From assembly GCA_013002405.1 (NCBI GenBank), contig JABDKA010000160.1:1-36972 (forward strand): a stretch of DNA of 36,972 bases, in the 5' to 3' direction. The position numbers and the translations under genes were made by a program. The DNA is from Sulfitobacter sp. Its GTDB lineage: Bacteria; Pseudomonadota; Alphaproteobacteria; Rhodobacterales; Rhodobacteraceae. This document shows positions 14,800 to 35,965 of the stretch, piece by piece. The stretch's first letter is position 1. Each line of letters starts with the position of its first letter. The notes under the pieces were generated by a model. It had not been told where the DNA came from. It did no database searches and saw only the letters and a program-made list of their open reading frames with translations.

Positions 14800-15039
14800 A
14801 TGGCGTCTGACAGACAGAACCTTCAGGATGCGTTCCTGAACCATGTGCGCAAGACCAAGGTACCGGTCACCATTTTCCTGATCAACGGGGTCAAGCTGCA
14901 AGGCGTGATCACCTGGTTTGACAATTTCTGCGTTCTGCTGCGCCGCGATGGCCAGTCCCAGCTTGTCTACAAGCACGCCATTTCGACCATCATGCCCAGC
15001 CAGCCGATCAGCCTCTACGAGGGCGAAGACGCTTCTTGA
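14800..15039 (+). CDS. hfq: RNA chaperone Hfq
   Basis: Hexameric Sm-like protein that pairs small RNAs with mRNAs; 79 residues, the compact alphaproteobacterial form without the long acidic tail of enteric Hfq. The Sm1 region ([20 protein letters not shown], then [11 protein letters not shown]) and the Sm2 motif YKHAISTI are intact. The start is ATG at 14800. The TGA stop overlaps the TTG start of hflX (TTGA), so HflX synthesis is probably coupled to Hfq. The miaA gene that precedes hfq in gammaproteobacteria is absent; here trkH precedes it. Confidence 0.97.
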
Positions 15040-33043: not shown

Positions 33044-34876
33044 CTAGCCCTCATCCCACCACCAGACTTCCGGCATGAAATTCGGCCCGTCCCCGTAGAT
33101 CGGCAGTACATCCGGGTATTTCATCCGCGCGTCGTGGGCAATGCGGCCCACAGTATATTGCCAGACCGGGATCACGTAGCGCCCTGCCGTCAGAATCCGG
33201 TCCAGCGCGCGCACGGCGGCGCGGAAGTCTTCCTGACTGCGGGCGGTCAGCATGGCGTCGATCATGGCATCGATGGCCGGGTGCCTGGCCCCCATTACAT
33301 TCCGTGATCCCGGCTGATCGGCGGCCTCCGTCCCCCAGTAATAACGCTGTTCGTTGCCGGGCGAGAGCGACAGAGAGCGCCGGAAGGTGGTCATGTCGAA
33401 ATCGAACTCTTCCAGCCTGCGCACGACCTGTGCGCTGTCCACGGGCTCAACCCGCGCGGCAATCCCAAGCCGCTTCAGGGCGCCCACGAACAGATCGGCG
33501 ATTTTTTCGGAACCCTGGATGTCCTGCGCGCTGCCTTTTGAGATGAGGATCGAGAAGCTGAGCGGTTTGCCTTCTCCGTTGCGCATCATGCCATCGTCAC
33601 CGGCACGGTATCCCGCCTCATTCAGCAGCTTCATCGCGGTGCGGATGCCGCGTCGGTTCCGGGCGGAGCCGTCCGAGACGGGCAAGGCATAGCCCTCAAG
33701 CGTGCCCGGCGGCAGATCATCGGCAAGGGGGGCCAGCAGGTCGCGGACCTTGCCGCTGGCGGGGCCGCTTTCCATCGCGAGGGTGGAATTGGAGAAATAG
33801 GAGGTGATCCGGGGCAGGGCGCCGCCGGTAAGTGTTTCATTGATATATTCGAAGTTGAAGGCCTGGATCATCGCCTCCCGCACGCGCCAGTCGTCAAAGG
33901 GCGCGCGGCGTGTGTTCATTACCAGCCCTGTCATGCCAGAGGGTTTCTGATGCGGAAACTCGGACTTGATGATCTCACCCCGCTCGATGGCCGGAAAGTC
34001 GTACTGTGTCTGCCAGGTCTCCGCGTTGAATTCCCGTCCGGCAGAAATCTCGCCCGCCTTGAAGGCCTCGAACAGCACATTGCCGTCGCCGTAGAAATCC
34101 AGCTTGATCCGGTCAAAGTTGTTGGTTCCGCGCCGGAAAGGAATGTTGGCCCCCCAATATTCGGGATTACGCGTAAGCGTCACCTGCCGCCCGGCGTCGA
34201 AATCGGTGACCATGTAGGGCCCTGTCCCGATGGGGATTTCCTGCAGTGGCGCATTGGCGAAATCCTTTGCCTCCCACTGCGCCTTTTTCAGGATGGGGCG
34301 CATGCCCGCCAGAAGGGCCAGTTCCCGGTTTTCCAAGTTGAAGGTGAAACGGACCTTGCGGGGACCTGTCTGTTCGATCCGCTCGATCTGATTGTAGAGG
34401 CCGTGGTAACGGGGATGCCCCTCGGTGCCCAGCAGGCCGTAGGAGAAGATCACGTCCTCCACCGTCACAGGGCTGCCGTCAGAGAATCGGGCATCCGAGC
34501 GGAGCGTGAATTCGACCCATTCTCGGGAATCGGGGGTCTCAACACTCTCGGCCAATAGCCCGTACAAGGTGAAAGGCTCATCCCAGGAACGGCCCATCAG
34601 GCTTTCGTGGGTGAAGAAGCGCAGCTGCCAGGGCACCGTCCCTTTGCGGACATATGGGTTAAGACTGTCAAAGCCGCCGGTGTTGCCCAGGACAATCTCA
34701 CCGCCCTTGGGCGCATCGGGATTCACATAAGGCAAAGACACAAAATCCGGTGGCAGAGCGGGGGTGCCATACATAGATATCCCGTGCTGCGGTTCGGCCG
34801 CAGCGAATCCCCCCGCCGCAAGGAGTGAAGAAAAGGCCGCAAGACGCGCCATACTCAGGAAAAAATCCAAGCCCAT
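33044..34876 (-). CDS. Periplasmic peptide-binding protein of ABC transporter, YejA-like (SBP_bac_5)
   Basis: Extracytoplasmic solute-binding protein of family 5, which captures oligopeptides or similar ligands for an ABC importer. The 610-residue product has a signal peptide (hydrophobic LAAFSSLLAAGGFAAA with cleavage near AAA-EP). The YejA-like opening HGISMYGTPALP is followed by YVNPDAPKGGEIVLGN and GGFDSLNPYV. IGTGPYMVTDFDAGR and a tryptophan-rich C terminus (EVWWWDEG) also fit the family. The start is ambiguous: ATG at 34876 has GGGAT upstream, while ATG at 34852 gives the cleaner signal peptide. The permease and ATPase genes yejBEF that normally follow are missing; downstream lies the convergent XRE gene. 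Confidence 0.88.
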   Translation of the reverse strand: MGLDFFLSMARLAAFSSLLAAGGFAAAEPQHGISMYGTPALPPDFVSLPYVNPDAPKGGEIVLGNTGGFDSLNPYVRKGTVPWQLRFFTHESLMGRSWDEPFTLYGLLAESVETPDSREWVEFTLRSDARFSDGSPVTVEDVIFSYGLLGTEGHPRYHGLYNQIERIEQTGPRKVRFTFNLENRELALLAGMRPILKKAQWEAKDFANAPLQEIPIGTGPYMVTDFDAGRQVTLTRNPEYWGANIPFRRGTNNFDRIKLDFYGDGNVLFEAFKAGEISAGREFNAETWQTQYDFPAIERGEIIKSEFPHQKPSGMTGLVMNTRRAPFDDWRVREAMIQAFNFEYINETLTGGALPRITSYFSNSTLAMESGPASGKVRDLLAPLADDLPPGTLEGYALPVSDGSARNRRGIRTAMKLLNEAGYRAGDDGMMRNGEGKPLSFSILISKGSAQDIQGSEKIADLFVGALKRLGIAARVEPVDSAQVVRRLEEFDFDMTTFRRSLSLSPGNEQRYYWGTEAADQPGSRNVMGARHPAIDAMIDAMLTARSQEDFRAAVRALDRILTAGRYVIPVWQYTVGRIAHDARMKYPDVLPIYGDGPNFMPEVWWWDEG

Positions 34877-34955
34877 ATTCGAAACAATCCCGCTCAGCCC
34901 TTGTTTTATGGGGCCAATGATTACCGGGAGGTCAGGGGCGCTGCAAACTTTTAGC

Positions 34956-34984
34956 TTGGCGTTATCCACATGATATTCTATAAA
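34956..34984 (+). promoter_or_regulatory. Strong-looking sigma70-type promoter with no gene downstream
   Basis: TTGGCG (34956-34961), a 17-bp spacer and TATAAA (34979-34984): four of six and five of six matches with optimal spacing, which is unusually good for this GC-rich sequence. It points rightward, away from the YejA-like gene, toward a hairpin and an intrinsic terminator, with no reading frame between. Predicted transcription start is about 34991. Confidence 0.55.
34962..34970 (+). promoter_or_regulatory. Perfect DnaA box inside the promoter spacer
   Basis: TTATCCACA, identical to the strongest E. coli DnaA boxes, fills the first nine bases of the spacer between the -35 and -10 elements above. 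It is the only one I noticed in the window. DnaA bound here would block RNA polymerase, or the match may be chance. Confidence 0.35.
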
Positions 34985-34990
34985 GAGTGC

Positions 34991-35067
34991 ACTGCTCGAT
35001 AGGTTTCTTGCCTGTATGAAACCTGCCTCAATAACTTAACGCCAGCCTTGTGCTGGCGTTTTTTTTT
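34991..35067 (+). ncRNA. Candidate small RNA, about 77 nt
   Basis: A compact transcription unit in the 303-bp gap between the YejA-like gene and bdhA. It has a promoter (34956-34984), a first stem AGGTTTC/GAAACCT (35001-35007 with 35018-35024, 10-base loop TTGCCTGTAT), an A/T-rich unpaired linker (35025-35037, containing AATAACTT, the kind of site Hfq can bind), and an intrinsic terminator with a nine-T tail. No ATG/GTG frame of useful length lies inside, and no plus-strand gene upstream could need this terminator: the nearest, the XRE gene, ends 2.1 kb earlier with an opposed gene between. I do not recognise the sequence as a known sRNA; the CCUCCUCCC loop of the Rhodobacter CcsR family is absent. 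Hfq dependence is a guess. Confidence 0.6.
35038..35067 (+). terminator. Intrinsic terminator
   Basis: ACGCCAGC (35039-35046), loop CTTGT, GCTGGCGT (35052-35059), then T continuously to 35067: an 8-bp GC-rich stem and nine T, the clearest Rho-independent terminator in the window. The stem can be extended by A35038-T35060. Read from the other strand it lacks a T tail, so it acts on rightward transcripts. Confidence 0.85.
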
Positions 35068-35137
35068 GCCTCCTCGCAAGGCACTTGCAGGTCGGCAGGG
35101 CCCACTGGCGTTTCCTTCCCCGTAATGGCACTACATG

Positions 35138-35179: not shown

Positions 35180-35965
35180 ATGGCCTATACCATCGACCTT
35201 TCCGGCAAGACCGCCGTTATCACCGGCTCAAATTCCGGCATCGGGCTGGGCATCGCCTGGGAATTTGCGCGGGCGGGTGCCGATGTGGTGCTCAACTCCT
35301 TTACCGACAACGAAGAGGACCACGCGCTGGCACGGGAGATCGCCGATGAAACCGGTGTCACGGCACGTTATCTCCAGGCTGACATGTCCAAATCCGAACA
35401 GTGCCGCCGCCTGATCGAGGAGGCGGGGAAATGTGATATCCTGGTGAACAACGCAGGTATTCAGCATGTGGCCCCGATCCCCGAATTCCCGACCGAGAAG
35501 TGGGATGCGATCATCGCCATCAACCTTTCCTCCGCTTTCCACACCACCGCCGTCGCCTTGCCGATGATGCGCGCGGCGGGCTGGGGCAGGGTCATCAACA
35601 TCGCCTCCGCTCACGGTCTGACCGCTTCGCCTTTCAAGGCGGCCTATATCGCGGCCAAGCACGGCATCGTGGGCCTGACCAAGACCACGGCACTTGAGAC
35701 GGCGAAGGAGCCCATCACCTGCAACGCCATCTGTCCCGGCTATGTTCTGACGCCGCTGGTGGAATCGCAGATCCCCGACACGGCGAAGAAGTACGACATG
35801 ACCGAGGAGGAGGCGAAGGAGAAAGTGATCCTGGACCGCCAGCCCAGCAAGGAGTTCGCCACGGTCGAGCAGTTGGGCGGCACGGCCACCTTCCTCTGCT
35901 CCGCCGCGGCTGATCAGATCACCGGCACGACCATCTCCGTTGATGGCGGCTGGACGGCGCTCTGA
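35180..35965 (+). CDS. bdhA: D-3-hydroxybutyrate dehydrogenase
   Basis: Short-chain dehydrogenase that interconverts D-3-hydroxybutyrate and acetoacetate with NAD, in polyhydroxybutyrate breakdown. 261 residues. TGSNSGIGLGIA is the nucleotide loop, NNAGIQHVAPI carries the substrate-binding Gln, NIASAHGL the catalytic Ser and substrate-binding His, and FKAAYIAAKHG the Lys, catalytic Tyr and catalytic Lys. DGGWTAL gives the C-terminal Trp. These are all residues known for bacterial 3-hydroxybutyrate dehydrogenases, which separates it from general SDRs. The ATG at 35180 has AAAGGAG seven bases upstream. The patatin-like gene begins on the base after its stop, so they are coupled. Confidence 0.95.
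   Translation: MAYTIDLSGKTAVITGSNSGIGLGIAWEFARAGADVVLNSFTDNEEDHALAREIADETGVTARYLQADMSKSEQCRRLIEEAGKCDILVNNAGIQHVAPIPEFPTEKWDAIIAINLSSAFHTTAVALPMMRAAGWGRVINIASAHGLTASPFKAAYIAAKHGIVGLTKTTALETAKEPITCNAICPGYVLTPLVESQIPDTAKKYDMTEEEAKEKVILDRQPSKEFATVEQLGGTATFLCSAAADQITGTTISVDGGWTAL

Follow-up and report, generated by a model that had tools for sequence, protein, structure and literature searches.

StsR of R. sphaeroides is the described small RNA to which the element examined in this study is most readily compared. In the portions of the published texts considered here, StsR (RSs0827) is 72 nt in length, depends on RpoHI/RpoHII, and binds both UpsM and Hfq (PMC8307010); an equation of StsR with RSs2978 was discarded on the basis of this source. 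In R. sphaeroides, UpsM (RSs0682), a small RNA of 206 nt, comes out of the mraZ leader, which is 268 nt long and is described, as a long leader, as exclusive to Rhodobacteraceae; UpsM is processed by RNase E under stress, given Hfq and RpoHI or RpoHII (PMC5089854). This cleavage is promoted by StsR: the pairing opens the RNase E site and affects read-through into the dcw genes (PMC8625941). UpsM, the small RNA of the dcw leader, is the partner or target derived from the mraZ leader, and not the gene considered here. StsR is also described as pairing with the rpoE mRNA from approximately 10 nt after its GTG; the rpoE-chrR pair was not found in the part of the R. sphaeroides sequence searched.

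Two small RNAs of Paracoccus denitrificans, "Intergenic 134" (84 nt) and "Intergenic 60" (80 nt), have been confirmed by RT-PCR and are conserved in Rhodobacteraceae, and the context of Intergenic 134 is shared with a putative small RNA of R. sphaeroides (PMC5107571, in the part of the text available). That the present element corresponds to one of these two is a guess. No match to the element could be drawn from the available part of a paper on small RNAs of Ruegeria pomeroyi (PMC4809877). The available parts of PMC8307010, PMC11354728, PMC8625941, PMC3413700, PMC3688512, and PMC13414033 contained no statement on family-wide conservation of StsR, the main StsR paper (NAR 2021) being outside the scope of this comparison.

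The element was found in a stretch of Sulfitobacter sp. DNA of 36,972 nucleotides, which, taken as a whole, is referred to as the window. Initial annotation of the window had proposed an undescribed small RNA at 34956-35067. We consider this stretch to encode StsR, a small RNA of Rhodobacteraceae that acts in trans and is of the Hfq type, with a probability of roughly 0.86; the homology is proposed from the complementarity to the leader that gives rise to UpsM, which StsR is published to bind, and not from a comparison with the StsR sequence. The term "undescribed" is unlikely to hold, since the element fits StsR of R. sphaeroides and is probably a homologue of it. As far as we have seen, the near-universality in the family and the co-conserved target are new, with no claim of their being unpublished.

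Structure of the putative transcription unit

A promoter, a hairpin, an A/T-rich linker, and a terminator could all be read in the sequence where the initial annotation had located them (Table 1), its -35 box (TTGGCG; 34956-34961) being one base later than the CTTGGC box adopted here. The promoter had been called near-optimal: both boxes are present and conserved, but a match of 9/12 to the sigma-70 consensus (counted by hand) makes this wording generous. It was not listed by a simple pattern scan, which accepts a -10 box only if its last base is T. Neither promoter-like nor terminator-like sites were more common in the window than in shuffled sequences (pattern scan, window in two parts). The evidence for the promoter is its conservation: among 185 distinct relatives (relatedness uncorrected), TTG of the -35 box was conserved at 100, 91, and 95%, respectively, and the spacer columns at 32-78%. 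If transcription starts at 34992, TTG at -35, C-37, T-13, and A-12 agree with the RpoHI/RpoHII promoter positions named in the part of PMC3441632 considered, and T-9 (favoured by RpoHI) and C-14 (favoured by RpoHII) are mostly unmet: A in 78% and T in 43% of the 185 relatives at those columns, respectively. Judged from its sequence, the promoter would match several, but not all, of the RpoHI/RpoHII positions, sigma-70 also being possible; it is partly compatible with the RpoHI/RpoHII dependence of StsR. The conservation of the CAAACTTTTAG block further upstream is unusual for a sigma factor alone and suggests an extra input, possibly an UP element or an activator site.

The terminator (35038-35067), called the best in the window by the initial annotation, has the most GC pairs among the 29 listed, followed by an unbroken T-run. 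The RNA of 34992-35067 was predicted to fold at -23.5 kcal/mol (z of -4.6), and none of 200 shuffled sequences folded equally well. In agreement with the claim that no reading frame is present, 34974-35035 was covered by no ORF of at least 40 aa. A micro-ORF of seven codons from the ATG of the conserved core (MKPASIT, by eye) was rejected: the ATG is missing in relative L195. These features, as read from the sequence, support a free-standing small RNA gene extending from promoter to terminator. By analogy with the StsR literature, Hfq may bind at the linker, and hfq is, as had been noted, encoded in the window.

Table 1. Features of the putative small RNA gene and of genes discussed with it (positions in the window).
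Feature	Position	Strand	Evidence or remark
Divergent family-5 solute-binding protein gene	33044-34876	-	PF00496, 222 bits
Conserved block CAAACTTTTAG upstream of -35 box	34944-34954	+	69-94% per column, 185 distinct relatives
-35 box CTTGGC	34955-34960	+	CTTG conserved at 85/100/91/95%, 185 distinct relatives
-10 box TATAAA	34979-34984	+	TATAA conserved at 98/99/96/92/78%; spacer to TTGGCG, 17 nt
Small RNA (probable StsR homologue), predicted transcript	34991-35065	+	Covariance model hit 34991-35065, 105.5 bits; start assumed at 34991-34992
Single-stranded 5' end ACTGCTCGAT	34991-35000	+	Its CTGCTCG could pair with CGAGCAG of the mraZ leader
Hairpin 1, 7 pairs, loop TTGCCTGTAT	35001-35024	+	RNA fold; pairs invariant in 19 chosen sequences
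Putative target-pairing segment TGCCTGTATGAAACCTGC	35009-35026	+	Complementary to mraZ/dcw leader of own genome, 18 contiguous pairs
Single-stranded linker, A/T-rich, candidate Hfq-binding region	35027-35037	+	Unpaired in predicted fold
Intrinsic terminator with T-run	35038-35067	+	Stem 35038-35060, T-run to 35067
bdhA, 3-hydroxybutyrate dehydrogenase	35180-35965	+	TIGR01963, 360.3 bits (cut-off 307.05)
hfq	14800-15039		PF17209, 115.9 bits; ~20 kb from the small RNA gene

Conservation and genomic context

A DNA search of 60 genomes found the region in 36: all 36 genomes of the genus (its own included) and none of the 24 that represent other families in the class. In Rhodobacteraceae, the searched family, of which the R. 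sphaeroides genome is a member, 384/394 genomes had a match, nearly all of them once, and the proportion was 345/347 among those at least 90% complete. Eight of the ten genomes with no match are less than 90% complete. Assembly gaps are likely in five of the ten (G191, G224, G294, G392, and G393), since these still have the target site (see below) at 17 or 18/19. A pattern search of the ten genomes returned one place only (in G092, with 3 mismatches), which was unlike the element. The genus of a Paracoccus locus showed a match in 120/121 genomes.

The 40-nt core ACTGCTCGATAGGTTTCTTGCCTGTATGAAACCTGCCTCA was exact in 80 of the 82 loci fetched by BLAST, which are mostly best matches, and in 42/44 distinct elements, the exceptions being L195 and L197; a further diverged copy (L261 of genome G088) stands outside these 44. 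Since the 185 relatives include loci fetched by the exact core pattern, core identity is biased in those column counts. In 19 sequences chosen by hand from the 44, seven of the nine pairs of the terminator stem had changes on both sides (compensatory), covariation over the whole structure was reached by none of 500 shuffles, and the pairs of hairpin 1 showed no variation. The initial annotation had named conserved -35 and -10 boxes and stems with compensatory changes as support; the boxes were found to be conserved, and such changes were found in the terminator stem, but not in the invariant hairpin 1. It had also named conservation of the terminator only, or of nothing, as an outcome against a small RNA, and the opposite was observed, with conservation extending far beyond the terminator. 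A chance arrangement of promoter-like and terminator-like sequences, with which the pattern scans taken alone would agree, is refuted by this near-universal and near-invariant conservation and by the covariation of the terminator, and its probability is negligible.

When 385 genomes of the class were searched with the covariance model under strict filters, 11 genomes had a hit: 5 belong to Rhodobacteraceae (103-107 bits), and the other 6 lie outside the family (24-30 bits). The core was absent from all 6 weak hits (120 nt viewed for each), 4 of which resembled terminators. We judged these hits to be due to chance, and the RNA is treated here, from its sequence distribution, as family-restricted. 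The comparison with Rfam that had been suggested gave no family at or above the gathering threshold in the window (Rfam 15); the scores in 34900-35130 were all sub-threshold, among them SorY (RF02651; 17.2 bits) and RyhB (RF00057; 20.1 bits), far below the gathering scores of 111 and 55, respectively, and the likeness is probably one of terminator shape only. A plasmid search found the element in four Paracoccus records, and a phage search found none; in Paracoccus versutus (L422), the element and both neighbour genes are located on pTAV4, a secondary replicon of 1.74 Mb.

Several side observations were made on individual loci. L204 (G344:C15:38103-38172) is a second, diverged copy situated 1.8 kb from the normal one, with 80% identity over 70 nt, and retains CTTGCCTGTA and the terminator. 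MAGs named Neomegalonema (L075, L138, and L146) carry the element; in L146 (titled uncultured Neomegalonema sp.), neither the solute-binding gene nor bdhA is near it, and the mraZ leader of the same genome carries TTTTGAGGCAGGTTTCGTACA. A patatin-like phospholipase gene (PF01734; 35966-36970 of the window) directly follows bdhA, and the order is the same in many relatives.

The divergent gene had been described as YejA-like and peptide-binding. It belongs to the family-5 solute-binding proteins (Table 1), "YejA-like" being a label of the initial annotation, and no NCBIfam model scored above its cut-off. In four partly overlapping groups, counted over loci with enough flank, this gene was just upstream of the element in 29/29, 29/30, 102/108, and 20/21 loci, and bdhA was within 1.7 kb downstream in 30/30, 24/30, 86/103, and 15/21 loci, respectively. 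Such conservation of the neighbours in most loci would be in line with an element that acts in cis on bdhA, as its leader or attenuator, or with one that regulates the divergent gene. However, the element has a strong terminator of its own ahead of bdhA, the distance to bdhA is variable or bdhA is absent, and eight loci (L052, L068, L075, L086, L091, L098, L146, and L183) keep the element with no recognized solute-binding neighbour. Furthermore, the strong complement found for the element belongs to another operon at a different place in the genome, where it lies in the leader of mraZ/dcw. The tie to the divergent gene that had been put forward is unsupported, and a role of either kind is very unlikely.

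Complementarity to the mraZ/dcw leader

A stretch complementary to the loop of hairpin 1 and to its 3' arm connects the element with StsR; it was found ahead of the cell division genes, in the mraZ/dcw leader. In the own genome, it comprised 18 contiguous pairs (18/19) at -247 from the mraZ match. The mraZ leader of R. sphaeroides carries AGCAGGCTTCATACAGGCA, matching the loop and 3' arm at 17/19, and by the coordinates in the available part of the published text this site falls inside UpsM. Within the 2.29 Mb of R. sphaeroides chromosome 1 that was scanned, no site outside the small RNA gene itself matched as well, the next two having 15/19; for 20 shuffled queries against the same 2.29 Mb, the totals were 52 sites of 15, 6 of 16, and none of at least 17.

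The site is conserved along with the structured small RNA: among leaders of at least 300 nt, it was present at 14/19 or more in 39/52. The first sample (R. sphaeroides and the 30 mraZ loci with the highest scores among 61 genomes) contributed 27/30, and the second (23 loci of 24 genomes, mostly picked for weak, double, or missing small RNA matches) 12/22; G078 and G417, with less than 300 nt of leader, were dropped from these counts. Of 1550 shuffled leaders, 13 reached 14/19 and none reached 16. In 30 of the 39 leaders having the first site at 14/19 or more, CGAGCAG, a second complement (to the 5' end of the small RNA), was located 30-80 nt downstream of the first. A contact there is a hypothesis drawn from sequence, since this section of the leader shows conservation of its own. 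Even where the possible second site was absent, the small RNA kept its 5' end unchanged, and the dcw leader therefore explains only part of the conservation.

Pairing was also assessed by duplex energy, with weaker results. With the small RNA and whole leader of the own genome, none of 200 shuffled leaders paired equally well. The R. sphaeroides leader did not stand out in this respect (12/200 shuffles as low), and even a wrong-strand stretch reached -39.2 kcal/mol. Among divergent lineages, the whole leader of G160 gave -33.5 with its own small RNA (1/200 shuffles as low) and -30.6 with the consensus. The corresponding values for G425 were -34.9 (3/200 shuffles) and -33.3, with the reverse on the short site, the sites in short-site comparisons being selected by eye. 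G088 has the diverged small RNA L261 and the mraZ leader L233: its site matched at 11/19, 50/200 shuffles were equally good, and the site tried favoured the consensus small RNA (-20.1) over its own (-15.2). The small RNA core and the leader have both diverged here and retain no convincing pairing, which points to possible loss or rewiring of the pair in this lineage. Evidence for co-variation between small RNA and leader is thin: it is present in G160, and in G425 and G088 it is missing or equivocal. Inspected by eye, with no shuffles, divergent leaders seemed to retain parts of the site: its two ends in G372, its 3' half in G425 and G252, and most of it, interrupted by a gap of one base, in G376 and G159.

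Relation to StsR, proposed mechanism, and significance

The R. sphaeroides genome used is taken to be that of Cereibacter sphaeroides 2.4.1, one of its contigs matching 2.4.1 plasmids at 99.9%. In R. sphaeroides, the element is located on the minus strand of chromosome 1 at about 1,443,993-1,444,072, between the same neighbours, and it measures 72-76 nt, according to which end is taken (the ends being sequence-based). The length of ~72 nt, the complementarity to UpsM/dcw, and the intrinsic terminator are common to the element and StsR of R. sphaeroides; the differences are the other species, the wide distribution found here, and a likeness drawn by description, not sequence. As the StsR identity of the locus rests on description and not on the StsR sequence, the element might instead be a different small RNA, one which likewise pairs with the dcw leader, StsR (RSs0827) being encoded elsewhere. 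No tie of the number 0827 to the locus was found (the only paper retrieved concerned a Ralstonia gene), and ~0.9 Mb of chromosome 1 together with the other replicons was outside the scan. On the other hand, no equally good match to the leader site was present elsewhere in the 2.29 Mb scanned, and the length, the partner, and parts of the promoter all fit StsR. We regard such a distinct small RNA as improbable.

If the locus is the gene of StsR, it would be transcribed from its own promoter, starting at ~34991 and ending at the intrinsic terminator, and would probably be under RpoH-type stress sigma factors. The small RNA would pair with the mraZ/dcw leader, which in R. sphaeroides yields the small RNA UpsM. 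According to the mechanism published for R. sphaeroides, this pairing would refold the leader, expose an RNase E site, and remove UpsM, and dcw read-through would then fall, leading to slower division in stress and stationary phase. Transcription, the sigma factor, and the roles of Hfq, RNase E, and cell division in this organism are proposed by analogy with R. sphaeroides. We also advance, tentatively and with somewhat under an even chance of its being correct, a broader proposal: StsR would be an ancestral, family-wide stress-to-division switch, preserved almost to the letter, that pairs with the dcw leader at the site formed by loop and 3' arm, with CTGCTCG of the unchanged 5' end making a second contact, and has further conserved partners (mRNAs or protein). 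Further partners are proposed because the core of the small RNA varies less than the known target site.

Rhodobacteraceae are abundant in the sea (roseobacters) and include Paracoccus and Rhodobacter. The element is a ready candidate for an Rfam family, and it poses a puzzle in that the 40-nt core, and its 5' end in particular, is kept more strictly than the known dcw target site demands. If the identification with StsR is true, a result from a single phototroph would become testable across hundreds of genera, and one small RNA would couple cell division to stress and to stationary phase across the family.
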